IMG/VR virus record: IMGVR_UViG_3300025137_000269
Coordinates: 1-25,092 of that record
From: a virus
DNA length: 25,092 nt
Strand: one strand, 5' to 3'
Part shown: positions 17,904 through 25,061 of the stretch, piece after piece
Layout of the letters: each line of letters begins with the position of its first letter
Numbering within the stretch: position 1 is the stretch's first letter
Program-made: the position numbers and the translations under genes
The notes under the pieces: generated by a model
Told to the model about the DNA's origin: nothing
The model's database searches: none
The model's input: only the letters and a program-made list of their open reading frames with translations

Positions 17904-18296
17904 TTATTCTTCTTTATTTTCTTCATCGTCTTCATCTATATCTCTGTAATAATCAACAATATGCAATATTTGTTCTAAATACCTAGTAATCTCACCCATG
18001 GTCATTGATAAATTCTCATAGCCTTGCGATGTCAAACCATAGTAAGCAACTCTGGGCTCTTCTCCAGCCTCAACCTTTTCAATATACTCTCCCATAGTGT
18101 CTGGGTTTAGAATAACCCATTCAACAGGTGGCGTGTCGATTGGTTCTGGCAAAGGCGGATGATAGATTGGAGTTCTTTTTGCAACGCTAACCACTTCTAC
18201 AGGCTTAACCTGTGGCTGCCTATTTGTCATTTCACTCATCAAAGAGTATGTAGAGCAACCATTAATTAGTGGTATCAGTATCAGTAGTTTTTTCAT
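17904..18296 (-). CDS. outer-membrane spanin subunit (Rz1-like lipoprotein)
   Basis: A 130-residue protein with a short lipoprotein signal peptide: MKKLLILIPLINGC, where Cys 14 would be lipidated. After it comes a Pro-rich section (TPIYHPPLPEPIDTPPVEW), then helical LTSQGYENLSMTMGEITRYL and HIVDYYRDIDEDDEE, ending acidic. The pattern IYHPPLP...VEW...M and YENLS.....I.RYL....YYR is what I recall for the o-spanin of T4-like and cyanophage genomes. Spanins fuse the inner and outer membranes at lysis, with the partner at 18262-18669. Its 5' end overlaps that gene by 35 bases in another frame, typical of Rz/Rz1-type pairs. The missing start spacing is normal for such overlap. Confidence 0.75.
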   Translation of the reverse strand: MKKLLILIPLINGCSTYSLMSEMTNRQPQVKPVEVVSVAKRTPIYHPPLPEPIDTPPVEWVILNPDTMGEYIEKVEAGEEPRVAYYGLTSQGYENLSMTMGEITRYLEQILHIVDYYRDIDEDDEENKEE

Positions 18297-18669
18297 CGCT
18301 TGTTAATATTTTAAAATTTTCTATAACTCTTGCTGTCGCTCGATTGACTTTTCCTTGAAGAATTAAAGGCTCAGTCATCGCCATGCCTTCTAAATTAAAG
18401 TTGGCAAACTTACTTCTAAGTTTAGTCACCTGTGCTTGAGAAGCGCTGTATTGCGTGTTTAGGGATTGTATTTGAGCTTGTGTTTTCTTAGCAGACTCTA
18501 AGGCTTTTACGATTTGATCGTTTTGCTCTTGTATCGTTCTTTCAAGCACTGCTTGATTGTTTATAGCTGTCTGTAGCTCTATTTTTGACTTATCTAGCTT
18601 TGCCATCAATACAATATTGATACAAATAGAGATCAATAAAATTACTCCAGCTATTGCCAGACCTTTCAC
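18262..18669 (-). CDS. inner-membrane spanin subunit (Rz-like)
   Basis: A 135-residue protein: transmembrane segment at residues 4-23 (LAIAGVILLISICINIVLMA), then a periplasmic coiled coil (KSKIELQTAINNQAVLERTI and on to residue 90) and a C-terminal part with PLILQGKVNRATARVIENFK. The membrane-anchored coiled coil followed by an overlapping Pro-rich lipoprotein is the i-spanin/o-spanin arrangement. The start is GTG, overlapping the upstream gene's stop as GTGA, so translation is coupled. The pair would act with a holin and endolysin, but no endolysin is visible nearby. Coiled-coil length is near that of other Rz proteins. Confidence 0.75.
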   Translation of the reverse strand: MKGLAIAGVILLISICINIVLMAKLDKSKIELQTAINNQAVLERTIQEQNDQIVKALESAKKTQAQIQSLNTQYSASQAQVTKLRSKFANFNLEGMAMTEPLILQGKVNRATARVIENFKILTSDEKTTDTDTTN

Positions 18670-18833
18670 TTTTTGCTTTTTGTTTTTACAGCAACTGTCT
18701 TATAGGCTTCATTGACATCTGGCGTTGATTTGTCATCACCAACATATTTGCCATCTTCATCTCTTGCACGAACTTTCTTTTCTTCGTAACCAAGAAATGT
18801 TGTCTTAAACCAATTAGTTAATCCATAAGCCAT
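18666..18833 (-). CDS. 55-residue conserved phage protein
   Basis: From ATG at 18833 the minus strand gives 55 residues: MAYGLTNWFKTTFLGYEEKK, VRARDEDGKYVGDDKSTPDV, and NEAYKTVAVKTKSKK. The phrase FLGYEEKKVRARDE.G.Y.GDDKSTP..NEAY is one I associate with small marine phage proteins. The start overlaps the upstream stop by one base (TAATG) with AGGAG in front, and the end overlaps the i-spanin start by four bases. Between membrane and spanin genes it may belong to the lysis set, but no motif shows how. Confidence 0.8.
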   Translation of the reverse strand: MAYGLTNWFKTTFLGYEEKKVRARDEDGKYVGDDKSTPDVNEAYKTVAVKTKSKK

Positions 18834-19228
18834 TATTTTTCTCCTTTAAAACTTTTAGATGATCCGCTTGTTCCAGCATATAGTCCAAACCAAGCAGCTC
18901 CTGCTCCAACTACTATAGATATTAAGCCCGATTGTTCAAAGCTAGGTTCTGGTAGATCCATAAACCAAAAAGTAGTGTAGTAAAGCAAATACATATAGAC
19001 AGACAAAAATGCTCTTGGAAAGATTCTCCACGAATCAATAGCTTGAGCTATAAATATAACCTTCTGATAAGGGTTATCATTCTTCTCATCTTCTAAAGTT
19101 CTTATTTTATCTTTAAGAGCAGAGTTTTCTTGGAGCATTTCCATGAACTTGGATAAGTCCATCTCAACTTCGTTTCGAGACATGTCTCCGCCAAATCTTC
19201 CAGAAGGATGGTATTGTTCGTCACTCAT
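18833..19228 (-). CDS. holin-like membrane protein
   Basis: A 131-residue protein: polar N-terminus (GRFGGDMSRNEVEMDLSKFM), coiled-coil-like stretch (ALKDKIRTLEDEKNDNPYQK), then two hydrophobic segments at about residues 70-90 (VYMYLLYYTTFWFM) and 101-118 (GLISIVVGAGAAWFGLYAG), ending basic. The phrase SPYQKVIFIAQAIDSWR-like 'IFIAQAIDSWRIFPRAFL' with YMYLLYYTTFWFM is familiar from numerous marine phages. Two membrane helices next to spanin genes make a holin plausible, though no holin family is proven here. A membrane protein of another kind remains possible. Confidence 0.7.
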   Translation of the reverse strand: MSDEQYHPSGRFGGDMSRNEVEMDLSKFMEMLQENSALKDKIRTLEDEKNDNPYQKVIFIAQAIDSWRIFPRAFLSVYMYLLYYTTFWFMDLPEPSFEQSGLISIVVGAGAAWFGLYAGTSGSSKSFKGEK

Positions 19229-19229
19229 A

Positions 19230-19595
19230 TTAGTTTGCTAGTGGGTTATCGTTTTTGTTCTTTAGGCTTTGTACATCATCATACATAGAGTCAATGCTTG
19301 AATTTATGCCTGCAACACTTGTTTGTAACATGATAATATCATTTTTAATTGGACTCAAATCTTGTGTCTCTATGTTTAACGATTTAATCTGCTCGTCAAC
19401 TGCGACTACTTTTTTATCCAAGTCTGTAACTTGATCTGATAAAGCATCTATTTCATTAATATAACGAGACATTTTAGACTCTAAGTTTTCTATCCTATTT
19501 ACATAAGTAGCCCCTGTATAGCCAAATCCAGCAAGTGTTCCTATTATGGAAACTAAACCTATGATCTGCGCTGCTTTTGATTGAAACCAATCCAT
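19230..19595 (-). CDS. membrane-anchored coiled-coil protein
   Basis: A 121-residue protein: an N-terminal membrane segment at residues 10-33 (IIGLVSIIGTLAGFGYTGAT) followed by a coiled coil with IENLESKMSRYINEIDALSD and later VTDLDKKVVAVDEQI. The plan (one helix and a coiled coil, about 120 residues) is similar to small membrane proteins that sit beside holins; GFGYTGATYVNR is a phrase I recall in marine phages. It is 2 bases from the holin-like gene. A role in lysis timing or as another membrane-spanning partner is possible. No motif proves it. Confidence 0.75.
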   Translation of the reverse strand: MDWFQSKAAQIIGLVSIIGTLAGFGYTGATYVNRIENLESKMSRYINEIDALSDQVTDLDKKVVAVDEQIKSLNIETQDLSPIKNDIIMLQTSVAGINSSIDSMYDDVQSLKNKNDNPLAN

Positions 19596-19604
19596 TTTTT
19601 ATTC

Positions 19605-19922
19605 CTATGCTAGTTTTGTTTTTTTAAATCTGTTTTTCATAATCGCTCCGCAACCTCTTGATTGAACACTACCGCCTTTTGCTTTTCTATGCGGTCTAAC
19701 TTTCTTTGAAATCTTCTTAGGTTGTTTTGAAAACTGTTTGCCTTTTTTAGTATCTTGTCTTTTTTTGCGAGTCGTAGCTGCATACTCAGCAGAGCTCAAA
19801 GATTTTATAGCGCTTTCTGGCAAATACCTTTCTCCAGTTTCACTGGATTTTTTACCAGATTTAGTGCGCCATTTTTGATTGGTCCAATTTTTTAAAGATT
19901 GTTGCGATGATTTTAACGCCAT
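19605..19922 (-). CDS. 105-residue Lys-rich protein with KGGSV motif
   Basis: A basic protein: MALKSSQQSLKNWTNQKWRT, SGKKSSETGERYLPESAIKS, SAEYAATTRKKRQDTKKGKQ, and a C-terminal KAKGGSVQSRGCGAIMKNRF. The N-terminal part (SLKNWT.QKWRTKSGKKSS.TGERYLP..AI..L...EYA.T...KR) resembles a conserved small protein of cyanophages and marine podophages. The tail with KGGSVQSRGCGA echoes the KKGGSVVKCRGGGA tail of the 13230-13421 protein. It shares its start base with the stop of the neighbour at 19922. DNA or RNA binding is likely from charge. Function unknown. Confidence 0.8.
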   Translation of the reverse strand: MALKSSQQSLKNWTNQKWRTKSGKKSSETGERYLPESAIKSLSSAEYAATTRKKRQDTKKGKQFSKQPKKISKKVRPHRKAKGGSVQSRGCGAIMKNRFKKTKLA

Positions 19923-20260
19923 TAACGATAACCTCCGCCAGCTTTTTTATAGGCTTTTGCAAGCATTTGAGCTTTTCTAGCCGACCATTGACCAGCTTTA
20001 CCGCCTTTTGTTCCAGATTTAATTCTGTTAAAAATTCTTTTACGCATGGTTGGCTTGGTATAGTTACCAGCTTTGTTTACAGTAGATTTTGATTTAGATG
20101 CGCTTCCACCTTTTTTAAGTTTAATTGACTGTAAAGTTTTGGCTTGTTTTGCATGTGACTTACTAGCCTTCTTCAAGCCTTTCACTACTTTTTTTATCTT
20201 AGCTTTATTCTTGCTACCTTTTGTTACTTGCTTATTCATCTGTGCTCTCGATATTACCAT
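19922..20260 (-). CDS. 112-residue Lys-rich protein, KKGGS and GGGYR motifs
   Basis: A highly basic protein: VISRAQMNKQVTKGSKNKAK, then LKKGGSASKSKSTVNKAGNY, TKPTMRKRIFNRIKSGTKGG and KAGQWSARKAQMLAKAYKKA, ending GGGYR. The NYTKPTMRKR.FNRIK...KGG..GQWSARKAQ.LA..YK..GGGYR stretch is one I recall from marine phages as a separate small domain. Here it is joined to a Lys-rich N-terminus with the KKGGS motif. It overlaps the 20254-20553 gene by 7 bases. Likely nucleic-acid binding; may be packaged. Confidence 0.8.
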   Translation of the reverse strand: MVISRAQMNKQVTKGSKNKAKIKKVVKGLKKASKSHAKQAKTLQSIKLKKGGSASKSKSTVNKAGNYTKPTMRKRIFNRIKSGTKGGKAGQWSARKAQMLAKAYKKAGGGYR

Positions 20261-20553
20261 TTTTCACGATTTGCCCAATATGCTGCTGACATTTTGCCTC
20301 TAGCTATATTTTTACCATGTCTTGCTTTAAAACTTTTTCGTCTTGCTTTCTGTTTAGCTGATTCACCTTTTTTTGGTTTGCCAGCAGTTTTTACGCCTTG
20401 CTGTCCAAATCGTATTGTTTTAATTTTGCTTCCTTCTTTTGCTACAACTACATGCGATTTTTTGGGATGACTTGGTGTTCTTTTGGGTTTGTTATAACCA
20501 CTGACTCCTGCTCTCGCAAGCCTTGGATCTTTTTTACTTTTTGCTCTTGCCAT
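20254..20553 (-). CDS. 99-residue basic protein (DUF6321-like)
   Basis: A protein that reads DPRLARAGVSGYNKPKRTPS, HPKKSHVVVAKEGSKIKTIR, FGQQGVKTAGKPKKGESAKQ and a closing KNIARGKMSAAYWANREKW. I recall this as the DUF6321 family of phage proteins, with RLA.AGV.GYNKPKRTP.H..KSH.VVAKEG.KIK.IRFGQQG and SAAYWAN..KW. It is short, basic, with a beta centre and a helical end. The function is not known. It is one of four basic proteins in a row between the NIDO gene and the lysis genes. Confidence 0.85.
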   Translation of the reverse strand: MARAKSKKDPRLARAGVSGYNKPKRTPSHPKKSHVVVAKEGSKIKTIRFGQQGVKTAGKPKKGESAKQKARRKSFKARHGKNIARGKMSAAYWANREKW

Positions 20554-20555
20554 TA

Positions 20556-20717
20556 TTATTTACCAACTTTTTTTATGGCTGTTTTATGAGCTTGTGTAAA
20601 TGTTAGTGGATTCCTGCTTCTGGTCATTAAATTGGTCATCTCTCTCATGTGTTTTGAGCTATGATGCTTCTTATGCCTTTGCATTGCTTTCTTTTGATTC
20701 GTTGTCAACTTTTTCAT
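20556..20717 (-). CDS. 53-residue Lys/His-rich protein
   Basis: A 53-residue protein: MKKLTTNQKKAMQRHKKHHS, SKHMREMTNLMTRSRNPLTF, and TQAHKTAIKKVGK. It has five His and many Lys residues. The plan KKLT..QK..M.RH.KHH...HM..M......G.TFTQAHK.A...VGK matches small marine phage proteins I recall. The ATG overlaps the stop of the NIDO gene (ATGA), so translation is coupled, and two bases separate it from the DUF6321-like gene. His-Lys-rich helices suggest nucleic-acid binding. Function unknown. Confidence 0.85.
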   Translation of the reverse strand: MKKLTTNQKKAMQRHKKHHSSKHMREMTNLMTRSRNPLTFTQAHKTAIKKVGK

Positions 20718-23107
20718 AAATTAGGCTGTCCATTAATTAAATCTCTCATGCCAGTCAAGCTGTTGCCATACAATCCCATGAAAGCAGCGTTATTGTCCGA
20801 CATAGAAACATTACCATAAATATCTTCTGGTTCATACCATGAAGAAGTATCTGGTATATTCATTTTGGCATAACTATCAAAGCCTTGCACATAGCCCATA
20901 TATGCAATTAATTGTGCTTCATCACCATACTCACCTGTTTCTTGTTGCTGTTGTTCTAGTTCTTCTTGTTGGTTTTCTATGTTTTGAGCAACTATTTGAT
21001 CGGCAATTAAATCGGCTTCAGAAGCGGGCATTTCAGACATTGCTGTATTGATTTCTAGCTCCATTGTGCCAACTGCTACATTTTGTGAACCACTAGTATT
21101 TGCATCGCTTTGACCAACTGCTACGTTTTGTGAACCAGTAGTATTGCTTGAAACCCCTGTATTTGTTGATGTGTTAGAAGCAACACTGGTTGATCCACCT
21201 ACTGCTGTATTATTCGCACCTATGGTATTTGAGCCACTTTCGCCAACAGCAGCATTATTACCACCTACTGCAACATTGCTAGAACTCATTGATAAAACTT
21301 GTTGTGTTTGCATTGCCGAACTTGCGACTTGAGCAGAGATACTGGGGGAGTTGCTGGTGCTAATTCCACCTCCAGATGATGAGCTGGCTACTGCGGTGCT
21401 TGTTGTATTAGAAACACCACCAGAAGCCACAGAAGAAGCATAAGATCCTCCCGATGATATAGACGTACCTGTGGCTTGAGCAGATGTTCCAGCAGTTGTA
21501 CCGCTTACGCTACTTGTGGCTGCTCTAATAGAGTTGGCAACCACATTTAATTGTTCTGCTTTTTTGTTGTCTTTTTTATCTTCGTTCTGCGTGACAACAA
21601 GCTCGATATTTTCTTCTCGGTCTTGGCTCTCTTCTTCAATTGTCTCTGCATCATCCAAGTCTCCAGTTTCATCTTCAGATAAATCTGCAAGCTCTTCCAA
21701 TATTTCTTCATCTTCTTCTTGTTCAATCCAATCCTCCAATTCTTCTATGGTTTCAAACTCTAAAAACTCTATGGGTTCGTCATCAATGTATTCTTCAATT
21801 AATTCTTGGTGTTCAAAATGATCCAATAAAATGTCTTCCAATATAGGTAAATCATAATCTGTTTCGTGATATTCTTCTGCCAATAATATTTCTTGATATA
21901 TCTGTTCGATATAAGGCTCTTCTTCGATATAACTTAACGGAATAAAGATTTCTTCGGGCAATGCATCAAATTCTTCTACAAAAGGCTCAAGGTATTCTTC
22001 TTCAAAATATAATGTTTCTTCGTAATATAATTCTTCTTCATAATATTGTTCTTCAAAATAAAGATCTTCTTCATAATAATCTATCCCCTGTAGCTCAGTA
22101 GTGTATACAAGGTCTTCTTCAAAGAAATAATCTTCTTCGTAATAGGGATCAACATACCCATACTGATCGTCTTGAAAATCATCATAGCCAAACATATCGC
22201 CTTGATAATAGGCATCTTCAACAAAAGTTTCGACCATATATCCAGCACAAGCTGGCGAATACTGCGAGTCCAAAGCACACTCATAATCAAACAAGTCATC
22301 CCAATAGTTAGCACATTGAGTAGAATACAATCCATCTAAATCACACTGTTGAGTTAAAAAAGCTGCTTGATAGCCAGTACATGCGGTATTGTTTAAAGGA
22401 TTGCTACAATCCAGTCCGTTCCCAGCACCTACGCCATATAAACTCCCACCATTTTCTAGCAAAGTATTAAAAGAAGTGTCGTTCCAATTGGTGTTGACAC
22501 AAGTGCCTGCAACATTTGTTGTGCCTGTACTGCATTCATCGTGATACAAATAAGTATATGATTCGCTTGAGCTCCCTTGTTCGCCAATCAATACATCGTG
22601 ATTGATAATATTTAAACCGCCATAACGAAACTCAAAGCTATCATTTGACTTCCATAATATGACTTCAAAAGAGTTATCTGAGCCACTTCTGTTGTATTCT
22701 CGTAGGTTATACCACCCAAAAACAGCTTTATCTGTAAAGTTTCTAGCTAGAACACTGGAGCCATTGTCTCGTATTAAATCAGTCCAGAAAGGATAAAGCG
22801 TATAAGTGTGTTGACCAGCTAAAGGATCTGGTGTGTAGTCGTTACAATAAGAACCGCTTGTTTTAAAGTGTAGGCATCCATTTGTTGCCATTCGAGCTGA
22901 TGTAAAGTCCTCACCATAAAAAGTAAATGTAAAGTCTAAGTTAAAAGCGCTTGATACTCGATCATCTCCAACACCTAAGTTGTAAGAAGTAGCTATATAG
23001 TTTGTTTTTAAATCAATGAGAGATTGATTTGCTTCGTAAATATATCCTGCATTTAATGTAGGTATAAATAAAACAAAAGCTAAACTAACTGCCCTTATCA
23101 AATTCAC
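20714..23107 (-). CDS. secreted NIDO-domain protein with Cys repeats and acidic Tyr/Glu region
   Basis: A 797-residue protein read from GTG at 23107. Residues 1-20 are a signal peptide (FVLFIPTLNA then GY). Residues about 45-190 match the nidogen-like (NIDO) plan: FTFYGEDFTSARMATNGCLH, YTLYPFWTDLIRDNGSS, FEVILWKSNDSFEFRYGG, and DVLIGEQGSS. Residues 234-298 are three Cys repeats, 299-505 a very acidic Glu/Tyr/Asp region, 530-690 a Ser/Gly/Thr/Asn region with NVAVG repeats, and 690-797 a C-terminal domain (WYEPEDIYGN). NIDO is common in extracellular adhesion proteins; I recall this protein type in marine phages, uncharacterised. It overlaps the upstream Asn-Thr gene by 23 bases, so the two are probably made together and exported. 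No role is proven. Confidence 0.85.
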   Translation of the reverse strand: MNLIRAVSLAFVLFIPTLNAGYIYEANQSLIDLKTNYIATSYNLGVGDDRVSSAFNLDFTFTFYGEDFTSARMATNGCLHFKTSGSYCNDYTPDPLAGQHTYTLYPFWTDLIRDNGSSVLARNFTDKAVFGWYNLREYNRSGSDNSFEVILWKSNDSFEFRYGGLNIINHDVLIGEQGSSSESYTYLYHDECSTGTTNVAGTCVNTNWNDTSFNTLLENGGSLYGVGAGNGLDCSNPLNNTACTGYQAAFLTQQCDLDGLYSTQCANYWDDLFDYECALDSQYSPACAGYMVETFVEDAYYQGDMFGYDDFQDDQYGYVDPYYEEDYFFEEDLVYTTELQGIDYYEEDLYFEEQYYEEELYYEETLYFEEEYLEPFVEEFDALPEEIFIPLSYIEEEPYIEQIYQEILLAEEYHETDYDLPILEDILLDHFEHQELIEEYIDDEPIEFLEFETIEELEDWIEQEEDEEILEELADLSEDETGDLDDAETIEEESQDREENIELVVTQNEDKKDNKKAEQLNVVANSIRAATSSVSGTTAGTSAQATGTSISSGGSYASSVASGGVSNTTSTAVASSSSGGGISTSNSPSISAQVASSAMQTQQVLSMSSSNVAVGGNNAAVGESGSNTIGANNTAVGGSTSVASNTSTNTGVSSNTTGSQNVAVGQSDANTSGSQNVAVGTMELEINTAMSEMPASEADLIADQIVAQNIENQQEELEQQQQETGEYGDEAQLIAYMGYVQGFDSYAKMNIPDTSSWYEPEDIYGNVSMSDNNAAFMGLYGNSLTGMRDLINGQPNL
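21069..21145 (-). repeat. 45-bp-period direct repeat (NVAVG motif)
   Basis: Two copies of a 32-base unit (21069-21100 and 21114-21145) differ at two bases and start 45 bases apart. They encode GSQNVAVG twice in the NIDO protein. The related phrases NVAVGGNNAAVG and NNTAVG further upstream extend a weaker array. Confidence 0.8.
22214..22408 (-). repeat. triple 21-22-residue Cys repeat in NIDO protein
   Basis: The protein carries C-x8-C-TGYQAAFLTQQ, C-x9-C-ANYWDDLFDYE and C-x9-C-AGYMVETFVED in tandem (residues 234-298). Each has two Cys with a Tyr two or three residues after the second. The DNA copies are diverged, so the repeat is old or selected at the protein level. Each unit could hold one disulfide. 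Confidence 0.75.
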
Positions 23108-24287
23108 GCTTACAGGTCAGTCTTGATTTATTTTGCCCAGAAGAGTTTTCGGTTCTAGCACACTTGGCAACATAGCTGGCTTTTGCTTCTTTGTAATCGG
23201 GTCGATCTTTAGGATTAGCAGCCCATGCCACTCTTGCTTCCTCGCCTATCTTGCCTTCATATGGACAAGGTGTGCCAGCCATATACATTGCACTAAACAC
23301 TCTAACGTCTTGGCACATGATGGCAACGGCTGCGACTTTCATGCCCATATCGTATAAATACTTTCCTAATTTTAATCGTTCACAGTTTTCATCTCTAACT
23401 GTTCTTCCAGCAGATAAACCAAATACTTGTCCTTGAAATGCACCAGAACGACCTACAGTACAGAGATCTTGGCTATAACTCATAATACTAGGAGCAATCG
23501 CAGAAGCAGGCGGTGCTTTAGTCGTAATATTTTGGTTGATAGTTTGTTCAGATTTTGACTCATTGATGTTCCGATTCGTGTTATCAGTGGTGCTGTTGTT
23601 TTCATTAACATTTTTGTTATTGGTCTGAACATTTGAATTTGAGTTCGATTCGTTCTTGTTTACGTTTGTGTTGTTAGAAGTCGATGTCGAATTATTATTG
23701 TTGTTATTGGTATTGGTATTCGTATTTGTACTTGTCGAAGTATTGTTGTTGTTATTGGTATTGTTACTGGTACTTGTATTGTTGTTGTTATTAGTGCTTG
23801 TAGAAGTATTTGTATTTGTATTGTTATTACTATTGCTTGATGTACTTGTGCTTGTATTGTTGTTTGTATTTGTTGCAGTCGATGTTGATGTATTGCTATT
23901 TGTGTTGTTATTGGTCGCAGTCGATGTCGAAGTATTGTTGTTGGTGTTGTTGTTGCTGTTGGTCGCGGTTGACGTGCTGGTGTTGTTATTAGTGTTGCTG
24001 TTGGTGTTGTTGTTGGTGTTGTTGTTTGTTGCAGTCGATGTCGTTGTAGAAGTGTTGGTGTTGCTATTAGTGTTGTTATTAGTGTTGCTGTTAGTGTTGT
24101 TGTTGGTGTTGTTGTTATTATTAGTGTTGGTTGTGGTCGTACTCGATGTGGTGGTCATCGAGTTCTGCTCACAATACTGAGAACCAGCAGTACAATCGCC
24201 AGTTTGATCGGCTTCTACGCTATTTGCACCAAGGAATATAGCGCCTACAAGCAGATAAAAATATAGCCATTTTTTATTTAACTTCAT
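23085..24287 (-). CDS. secreted Asn/Thr/Ser-repeat protein with Cys-rich C-terminal domain
   Basis: A 400-residue protein. Residues 1-26 are a signal peptide (LYFYLLVGAIFLGANSVEA, cut before DQ). Then come TGDCTAGSQYC, and residues about 44-245 of almost only Asn, Thr, Ser and Ala. From about 258 a folded domain follows: PSIMSYSQDLCTVGRSGAF, DENCERLKLGKYLYDMGMKV, AAVAIMCQDVRVFSAMYMAG and TPCPYEG. There are eight Cys in the mature protein, permitting four disulfides in the periplasm or outside the cell. I recall the DLCTVG.SG...NCE..KL...LY..GMKVAA...C Cys domain beside NIDO genes in marine phages. It overlaps the SNase gene by 14 bases and the NIDO gene by 23. The linker may lift the C-terminal domain from a surface. 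Function unknown. Confidence 0.85.
   Translation of the reverse strand: MKLNKKWLYFYLLVGAIFLGANSVEADQTGDCTAGSQYCEQNSMTTTSSTTTTNTNNNNNTNNNTNSNTNNNTNSNTNTSTTTSTATNNNTNNNTNSNTNNNTSTSTATNSNNNTNNNTSTSTATNNNTNSNTSTSTATNTNNNTSTSTSSNSNNNTNTNTSTSTNNNNNTSTSNNTNNNNNTSTSTNTNTNTNNNNNNSTSTSNNTNVNKNESNSNSNVQTNNKNVNENNSTTDNTNRNINESKSEQTINQNITTKAPPASAIAPSIMSYSQDLCTVGRSGAFQGQVFGLSAGRTVRDENCERLKLGKYLYDMGMKVAAVAIMCQDVRVFSAMYMAGTPCPYEGKIGEEARVAWAANPKDRPDYKEAKASYVAKCARTENSSGQNKSRLTCKREFDKGS
23553..24158 (-). repeat. Asn/Thr/Ser low-complexity coding repeat
   Basis: About 600 bases of degenerate triplet-based repeat encode runs such as NNNTNNNTSTSTAT and NNTNSNTNNNT. The minus strand is nearly all A, C and T-poor codons (AAC/AAT, ACT/ACC, AGC/TCG), giving strong strand skew: the plus strand is G/T-rich here. 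Units vary in codon use, so exact tandem copies are short. Confidence 0.85.
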
Positions 24288-24696
24288 GTGGATTAAATAA
24301 TTTCTTTTCTATTAAGGTTTGACGATTAACTAAATGCTCGTCTTCGATGTCTTTTTTGCTCTGTCCTTCGTATTTTACAGCATGAAAATCATCAACCATC
24401 ATTAAGTTTATGTTACGACCAGCTACATACATCTCGCCCAAAACTCGACCAAACTTGCCTTTTTTGTCTTTATGAGTTTTTATGACGACATCTCCCTTGT
24501 CGAGCCATTCTTTTAAGTACGCTTTGCTCATCAAACCTCTGACTTTTTCATCTTTGTCTCTGGTCCTAGATTCTGGCGTGTCGATGCCATATAAGCGTAC
24601 TCGGCTTTTGTAGAATATATCAAAGCCTAGATCAATAACGACATCCACAGTATCGCCATCGACTATTCTTTTGATTTCACATTTATATTCGTACAT
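24274..24696 (-). CDS. staphylococcal-nuclease-like (SNase) protein
   Basis: A 140-residue protein with the whole SNase active-site set: DGDT at residues 13-16, RLYGIDTPES at 34-43 (Arg 34, Asp 39, Glu 42) and FGRVLGEMYVAG with Arg 84. These match Asp21, Arg35, Asp40, Glu43 and Arg87 of the reference enzyme, a calcium-dependent nuclease that cuts DNA and RNA to 3'-phosphates. The length is that of a single domain. It has no signal peptide, so as read it stays in the cytoplasm, unlike the exported proteins encoded after it. The start overlaps the upstream gene's stop by one base (TAATG). Possible jobs are host-DNA breakdown or defence against competing DNA; both are inference. Confidence 0.9.
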   Translation of the reverse strand: MYEYKCEIKRIVDGDTVDVVIDLGFDIFYKSRVRLYGIDTPESRTRDKDEKVRGLMSKAYLKEWLDKGDVVIKTHKDKKGKFGRVLGEMYVAGRNINLMMVDDFHAVKYEGQSKKDIEDEHLVNRQTLIEKKLFNPHEVK

Positions 24697-24827
24697 TAAA
24701 GCCAGCCAAAAGTTCTAAATAAATCCCAAAGAACATAGGCAAAGCAAATCCAAAATGCTTTTCTATAAAAAGCATATTTGTTGTAAACAACTTCCGGCAC
24801 TTTGCCTAATCTGTAAAGCTCTTCCAT
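24696..24827 (-). CDS. 43-residue single-helix membrane protein
   Basis: From ATG at 24827 the minus strand gives 43 residues: MEELYRLGKVPEVVYNKYAF, YRKAFWICFAYVLWDLFRTF, GWL. One aromatic-rich hydrophobic helix at about residues 24-43 follows a short charged N-terminus. A GAAG ribosome-site-like sequence precedes the ATG, and an in-frame stop just upstream fixes the start. Its stop overlaps the SNase start (TAATG). It fills the only gap between the lipoprotein and SNase genes. Function unknown; it may be an inner membrane peptide. Confidence 0.7.
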   Translation of the reverse strand: MEELYRLGKVPEVVYNKYAFYRKAFWICFAYVLWDLFRTFGWL

Positions 24828-24842
24828 AAATCTTCAAATGTT

Positions 24843-25061
24843 TTACTCAGATTCTTTATTGACTTCTTTTGTCTCTTCTTCAATCTTATCAACAACAGTG
24901 CTTACCGCACCGACTGGTATCGAAATAGCAGTTTTGCTTATGTCTACGACATCATCGACAACCGCGCCAGCAATATCTTTGCCAGCATTTATTGTTGATT
25001 CGATTGTAGAACAACCTGTTAATACAAGACCTAATAAAGATATAGAAATTAAATTCTTCAT
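24843..25061 (-). CDS. small lipoprotein
   Basis: A 72-residue protein with a lipoprotein signal: MKNLISISLLGLVLTGCSTI, lipobox LTGC with Cys 17. The mature part is Val/Asp/Ala-rich (NAGKDIAGAVVDDVVDISKT, then AVSTVVDKIEEETKE) and helical. I recall near-identical small lipoproteins (GCSTIESTINAGKDIAG) in marine phages and SAR11 relatives. A strong ribosome site (AAGGAGGA at 25073-25066) is 4 bases from ATG. The last 20 bases of the window before it may be the end of an upstream gene (a TAA at 25074-25072), but too little is left to tell. A role in entry exclusion or envelope change is possible; not shown. Confidence 0.85.
   Translation of the reverse strand: MKNLISISLLGLVLTGCSTIESTINAGKDIAGAVVDDVVDISKTAISIPVGAVSTVVDKIEEETKEVNKESE

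Follow-up and report, generated by a model that had tools for sequence, protein, structure and literature searches.

A three-gene accessory cassette of marine and freshwater phages, predicted to encode exported proteins, alternates with curli genes beside the spanin genes

The closest described counterpart of the genes considered here is the curli (type VIII secretion system) module of phages, which comprises CsgF, CsgG, CsgA/B, FecR and an adenylate cyclase and is found in pelagiphages and in Melnitz; the pelagiphage module was described by Wittmers et al. (PMC9599517). Its proposed roles are sibling capture (PMC7029224) and superinfection defence (PMC9599517), while one paper prefers lysis timing (PMC9004378). 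Here we describe a three-gene cassette in the linear virus record IMGVR_UViG_3300025137_000269, all 25,092 bases of which were analyzed and are referred to as the window; all coordinates given for it lie on the minus strand, which holds its late genes. The cassette consists of gene 1 (23085..24287), encoding an Asn/Thr-rich protein with a C-terminal four-Cys domain, gene 2 (20714..23107), encoding a head-linker-tail protein, and gene 3 (19230..19595), encoding a transmembrane coiled-coil protein. It resembles phage curli in its slot, which the two share in close relatives, in its late-region location, in predicted Sec export, in being an accessory unit spread across phage families, and in having a repetitive, Asn-rich exported component. 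In contrast to phage curli, it is without CsgG, CsgF, FecR, the cyclase, curlin repeats and an outer-membrane pore, and it has instead the Cys domain, the head-linker-tail protein and a coiled coil ending in an NPL motif. Curlin repeats (PF07012) are present in curli loci; genes 1 and 2 of the window matched neither these repeats nor any other Pfam family. No paper describing the cassette was found in the openly accessible literature, subscription journals being outside the search.

The relationship with curli became apparent from 80 terminase relatives of the window (80 to 94% identical terminase) that were collected irrespective of whether they carry the cassette. The slot beside the spanin genes could be resolved in the 47 with enough upstream sequence, a set of mostly fragmentary records in which near-identical sequences are included, and it held the cassette in 20, curli genes in 24, neither in 3 and both in none. 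Judged by Pfam matches, the identity of the curli genes is unambiguous (CsgG, E=9e-49; CsgF, 6e-14; FecR, 1e-9; curlin repeat; CHASE2-cyclase), and the terminase tree requires the curli state to have been gained or lost no fewer than three times. When a cassette-bearing locus (L063) was compared with two curli-bearing ones (L453 and L505), the flanks were orthologous gene for gene, with two small open reading frames (ORFs), a holin-like gene and an SNase gene on one side and the i-spanin, o-spanin, endolysin and terminase genes on the other; only the SNase gene is slightly reordered locally in L505. The position of the cassette, between the SNase/holin-like genes and the spanin genes, is that of curli in HTVC023P-type relatives. 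CsgG (PF03783) was found in none of 45 larger cassette-bearing records, with E. coli and other controls positive, a result that adds little because curli is rare outside the HTVC023P type. Among pelagimyophages, HTVC008M and Melnitz carry curli and Mosig carries the cassette, but the modules sit at different positions, and the exchange there is therefore not allelic. As a side observation, two small proteins with a transmembrane segment and a coiled coil (84 to 98 amino acids) are encoded directly before CsgF (L453:5205-5755 and L505:3097-3665); they are far shorter than the histidine kinase that the literature places there and were seen in curli loci only (7/7).

That the two large proteins belong together had been suggested by a sequence-only reading of the window, and this pairing was borne out. 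IMG/VR was scanned independently with the NIDO protein (gene 2) and with the Cys domain (gene 1), which yielded 154 loci, and the two genes were adjacent and in the same order in 74/74 and 71/71 uncut loci of the two scans (145 in total), usually overlapping (median gap, -26 bases). The pairing exceeds chance, no separated and unlinked homologue was found among window-type relatives, and neither large protein gave a convincing match to a known tail fibre or lysis protein. The same reading had joined five adjacent genes, those for a nuclease and a lipoprotein among them, into one unit. All five genes are real and tightly packed (three of the four junctions overlap, by 1, 14 and 23 bases, and the fourth is a 15-base gap), but the five-gene unit was rejected: the SNase-like gene also flanks curli alleles, and among the 154 loci it was matched in a minority and the lipoprotein in few. 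The true unit is genes 1, 2 and 3, with the SNase and lipoprotein genes outside it. Gene 3 had been overlooked because four small basic ORFs part it from gene 2 in the window. A gene 3 homologue was present no more than 4.5 kb downstream of the Cys gene in 103/104 loci of the window type, 32/33 of the pelagiphage type and 32/32 of the freshwater type. Every one of the 11 INPHARED records that contain the Cys domain also carries gene 3.

The cassette is accessory, and its three genes are present or absent together. By terminase, the cultured or single-cell phages nearest to the window are HTVC027P and 023Pt_psg01; both are without all three genes in the 38 to 45 kb examined, and gene 1 is missing from their whole records, whereas HTVC023P, which is of the same type, carries all three. 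Among cultured phages, the cassette is found in HTVC023P, HTVC033P, HTVC115P, HTVC202P, Mosig, Baldr, CRP-207 and CRP-810. Its carriers include podoviruses and a T4-like myovirus. A scan of bacterial genomes returned mostly phage contigs binned into metagenome-assembled genomes, and many GTDB genome bins (L406-L430) hold cassette contigs that look like phage.

The gene 1 protein (400 amino acids) is a member of phrog_20531 (E=1e-12), a family whose function is unknown and for which the library gives no operon context. By inspection, it begins with a type I signal peptide without a lipobox (MKLNKKWLYFYLLVGAIFLGANSVEA^DQ, 24210..24287), in agreement with the export signals noted earlier for both large proteins, and the mature protein has the expected 8 cysteines. 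A low-complexity linker (23538..24152), in which 185 of the 205 residues are Asn (89), Thr (61) or Ser (35), leads to the conserved Cys domain (23085..23503), whose C22, C48, C71 and C87 are invariant in alignment A2. AlphaFold modelled this domain as a helical bundle, with a confidence score (pLDDT) of about 85 across the last 100 residues. Searches of the PDB gave neither a sequence match nor a significant fold match for it, and a fold search in a viral library retrieved two phage proteins that are themselves uncharacterised (E=5e-10 and 4e-5). Relatives of gene 1 were found in 11 INPHARED phages and several hundred viral contigs. A 226-kb alphaproteobacterial contig, probably part of a chromosome, carries an isolated gene for an Asn/Gln-rich exported protein that terminates in the Cys domain (L431:5509-6441, E=1e-24), a possible cellular origin of the domain. 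In roseophages, the gene just before the Cys gene (L165:1725-1940 and L250:4790-5107) encodes a small lipoprotein that bears a second, weak copy of the Cys-domain motif (E about 1e-5); this lipoprotein might serve the cassette as a partner in the outer membrane. Furthermore, the 52-kb freshwater viral contig 3300028027_000073 carries two Cys-domain genes about 38 kb apart (L333 and L368).

Gene 2 starts with GTG, overlaps gene 1 by 23 bases and encodes a protein of 797 amino acids with a type I signal peptide (by inspection) and, as counted before, 10 cysteines in its mature form. The NIDO label given to it in the sequence-only reading appears right at the family level: a profile of 56 relatives matched residues 7-171 of Flavobacterium RemA (PDB 8gl6) with an E value of 4e-8, and PF06119 was matched by 2 of the 56 (best E=4e-7). 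The window protein alone gave nothing in Pfam or PHROGs, and tblastn of it against 50,697 phage records gave zero matches. The NIDO-like β-sandwich head (22508..23047; core pLDDT of about 85 to 90) is followed by a Cys-rich helical repeat region (22238..22507), inside or beside which most of the 10 cysteines lie and which shows weak similarity to CPW_WPC (30/56 relatives, best E=0.004), then by an acidic, mostly disordered linker (21548..22207; 87 Glu/Asp per 220 residues) and by a C-terminal tail with the motif WYEPEDIY...DN (20717..20896). A PDB fold search with the full model, which is mostly of low confidence outside two domains, returned nothing significant. By profile, the head appears similar to PF06119 and the N terminus of RemA, but NIDO is only one among several interchangeable heads, and the Cys repeats, acidic linker and tail have no counterpart in the NIDO/RemA proteins. 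It may be added that SQNVAVG...NVAVG repeats near the end of the protein (21040-21260) resemble the head repeats of the trimeric adhesin YadA.

By inspection, the gene following the Cys gene encodes other heads elsewhere: most pelagiphages and S28C10 have heads resembling carbohydrate-binding modules (CBMs), the freshwater phages have Cys-rich repeats, and the heads of roseophages are helical. The exported design of the protein is kept throughout. The S28C10 head matched CBM_4_9 with an E value of 0.009, which is below the cut-off. The tail motif WYEPEDIY...DN is common to the CBM-headed partners, all 81 matches to [FWY]Y.x..IY among 25,864 ORFs fall in NIDO or CBM-like partner proteins, and a profile comparison of the two tail types scored 24.7, with nine control families at or below 19.4. 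These data suggest that the NIDO and CBM-like tails are related, a modest link rather than proof. The claim of a common tail is limited to these two types, since a profile comparison found no match between the tails of the freshwater partners and the other tails. Among the identifiable genes of metaviromic islands, the most frequent is annotated as a "putative carbohydrate binding domain containing protein", and a role in host recognition was inferred for it (PMC3909814). The S28C10 gene 2 bears the same annotation and may belong to one family with the 14 genes of that study.

The gene 3 protein (121 amino acids) has a single N-terminal transmembrane helix and a coiled coil, and it ends in NPLAN. 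A profile-profile comparison (hhalign) of the window-type and pelagiphage forms gave a probability of 98% (E=1e-13), compared with 51% for an i-spanin control that gauges generic coiled-coil similarity. Searches by tblastn with five gene 3 proteins revealed no convincing relative elsewhere, the lone other match being a fragment (27% identity, E=0.002). The charges flanking the helix favour a periplasmic coil (N-in) for the pelagiphage forms; those of the window form are close to neutral. Pelagiphage gene 3 proteins (L157:7990-8349 and L172:7048-7380) also contain His-rich loops, SHTHEVGEHTHDTEHGHT, which could bind metal in the periplasm. As a small transmembrane coiled-coil protein encoded beside lysis genes, the gene 3 product resembles both spanins (Rz/Rz1) and the DUF2730 releasin (Mu gp25). 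It differs from the former in that separate, canonical Rz/Rz1-like genes are present, the cassette has no lipoprotein partner, and the protein has a C-terminal NPL. The name releasin was considered for it and rejected: DUF2730 (PF10805) gave E=0.016 and 15.8 bits against a cut-off of 24.9, and the predicted topology of the pelagiphage forms is the opposite of the N-out, C-in topology of the releasin (PMC9239132).

Taken together, we give even odds to the view that the cassette is a mobile accessory unit encoding an exported, inner-membrane-anchored envelope complex made during infection, a positional alternative to phage curli. The gene 1 and gene 2 proteins would be exported via Sec and would form disulphides in the periplasm, where the Cys domain of the former and the tail of the latter may dock on the periplasmic coiled coil of the gene 3 protein. 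The gene 2 head, be it NIDO, CBM-like or other, would be shown in the periplasm or beyond and bind an envelope or surface ligand, and the envelope of the infected cell would thereby be altered before lysis. The most likely purpose would be to block adsorption of competing or sibling phages, by superinfection block or receptor masking, or to give the cell adhesive properties. Cor and the T5 lipoprotein Llp, small exported phage proteins that exclude superinfection by masking receptors, are a possible functional parallel, although the cassette has several genes, and the proteins they encode are large, modular and non-lipidated. The list of roles is carried over from phage curli on the strength of the positional analogy. 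A surface-modifying system was among the suggestions of the sequence-only reading, and this part of it fits, since a curli surface-fibre module occupies the same slot in close relatives; which exact role applies, superinfection block, adhesion or lysis timing, is less firmly indicated, and we infer only that the cassette most likely acts on the envelope of the infected cell.

Several points weigh against this view. The cassette encodes no route across the outer membrane, such as a CsgG-like pore, so that the exported proteins may remain in the periplasm until the cell lyses. Phage curli is itself of unproven function, lysis timing being preferred in one paper (PMC9004378), and a shared slot shows interchangeable position, not function. 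Moreover, the NIDO head is 67 to 83% identical where the terminase is 84 to 86% identical, which is unlike a hypervariable specificity domain; being so conserved, it probably binds a conserved ligand, and the CBM-like heads may be more variable, given that the annotation of S28C10 gene 2 is so prominent in metaviromic islands (PMC3909814).

An accessory role in lysis, with an i-spanin- or releasin-like gene 3 protein and exported partners that help to disrupt the envelope or to time its disruption, is the best of the alternatives, yet we regard it as unlikely. It would accord with the finding that, in unrelated phages, the cassette neighbours genes for a holin, spanin or endolysin, with the transmembrane helix and coiled coil of gene 3 and its weak DUF2730 match, and with the lysis timing suggested for phage curli. 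However, spanin genes are kept with the cassette, with curli and in an empty slot (L501), as are the holin-like and endolysin genes where visible. Since these genes persist in all three states, the cassette is neither a spanin nor an obligatory part of lysis and appears instead as an exported accessory module that can be exchanged for phage curli; for the same reason, superinfection block, receptor masking or adhesion is placed ahead of lysis timing. HTVC027P and 023Pt_psg01 dispense with the cassette altogether, and the DUF2730 match, below its cut-off, implies a topology contrary to the prediction for the pelagiphage forms. Both exported proteins are without a lipobox, and the label spanin was rejected for the cassette, separate spanin genes being present in the window, including that for the o-spanin at 17904-18296.

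The site by the spanin genes might also be a generic cargo slot that takes any late accessory genes, in which case alternation with curli would be uninformative about function. Overlap in position alone indeed proves no analogy, and among pelagimyophages the curli module of HTVC008M and the cassette of Mosig do not occupy the same position. Nevertheless, we think this improbable, as the 47 resolvable slots contained two cargo types or were empty, and both cargos are multi-gene Sec-export modules of similar length. Least probable is an adhesin matured in the periplasm, with the gene 1 and gene 2 proteins joining virions during or after lysis as a lectin-like host-binding layer: the heads are lectin-like, the annotation of S28C10 gene 2 is that of the commonest identifiable metaviromic-island gene (PMC3909814), possibly of the same family, and tail-fibre genes lie nearby in some phages, but virion assembly is cytoplasmic, curli replaces the cassette, and the idea, also raised in the sequence-only reading, is weakened because one cassette serves several tail types, in podoviruses and a T4-like myovirus, and because the co-travelling gene 3 product is a predicted membrane protein. 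The label tail fibre was rejected in view of the Sec signal, the several tail types and the absence of similarity, the best tail-family match being to phrog_529 (E=0.097) over the Asn/Thr linker of gene 1.

The remaining genes around the cassette are neighbours rather than parts of it. Upstream of gene 1 lie genes for an SNase-like nuclease (24274-24696; PF00565, E=4e-12), a membrane peptide of 43 amino acids (24696-24827) and a lipoprotein of 72 amino acids with the lipobox LTGC, as noted before (24843-25061), which is found in few relatives. Genes 2 and 3 are separated by four small basic ORFs (19605-19922, 19922-20260, 20254-20553 and 20556-20717), which are missing from that position in most relatives and are passengers; the first three encode strongly basic proteins (19605-20553), two of which match phrog_14910 and phrog_17747, both of unknown function. 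On the other side, the slot is bordered by the resident lysis genes, a putative holin-like gene (18833-19228), an i-spanin-like gene (18262-18669) and the o-spanin lipoprotein gene (17904-18296; phrog_812, E=3e-11), with matches to phrog_812 and phrog_89 among them. The spanin genes lie 2 to 3 kb beyond the five-gene stretch, and orthologues of these lysis genes (17904-19228) also flank curli alleles.

In summary, we consider it a little short of an even chance that these genes represent an undescribed and widespread system of marine and freshwater phages, a disulphide-rich exported complex, anchored in the inner membrane and bearing interchangeable lectin-like heads, that would be the equivalent of the curli of sister phages and would remodel the envelope or surface of the infected cell against competitors or hold sibling cells. 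With the cassette, hundreds of unannotated genes from phages that abound in the ocean and in fresh water become part of a single defined system of three genes. The role of phage curli is debated in the pelagiphage literature, with sibling capture, superinfection block, uptake and lysis timing all under discussion, and a structurally unrelated module that repeatedly replaces curli in one slot provides an independent handle on this question, since a common effect of the two should be a shared phenotype.

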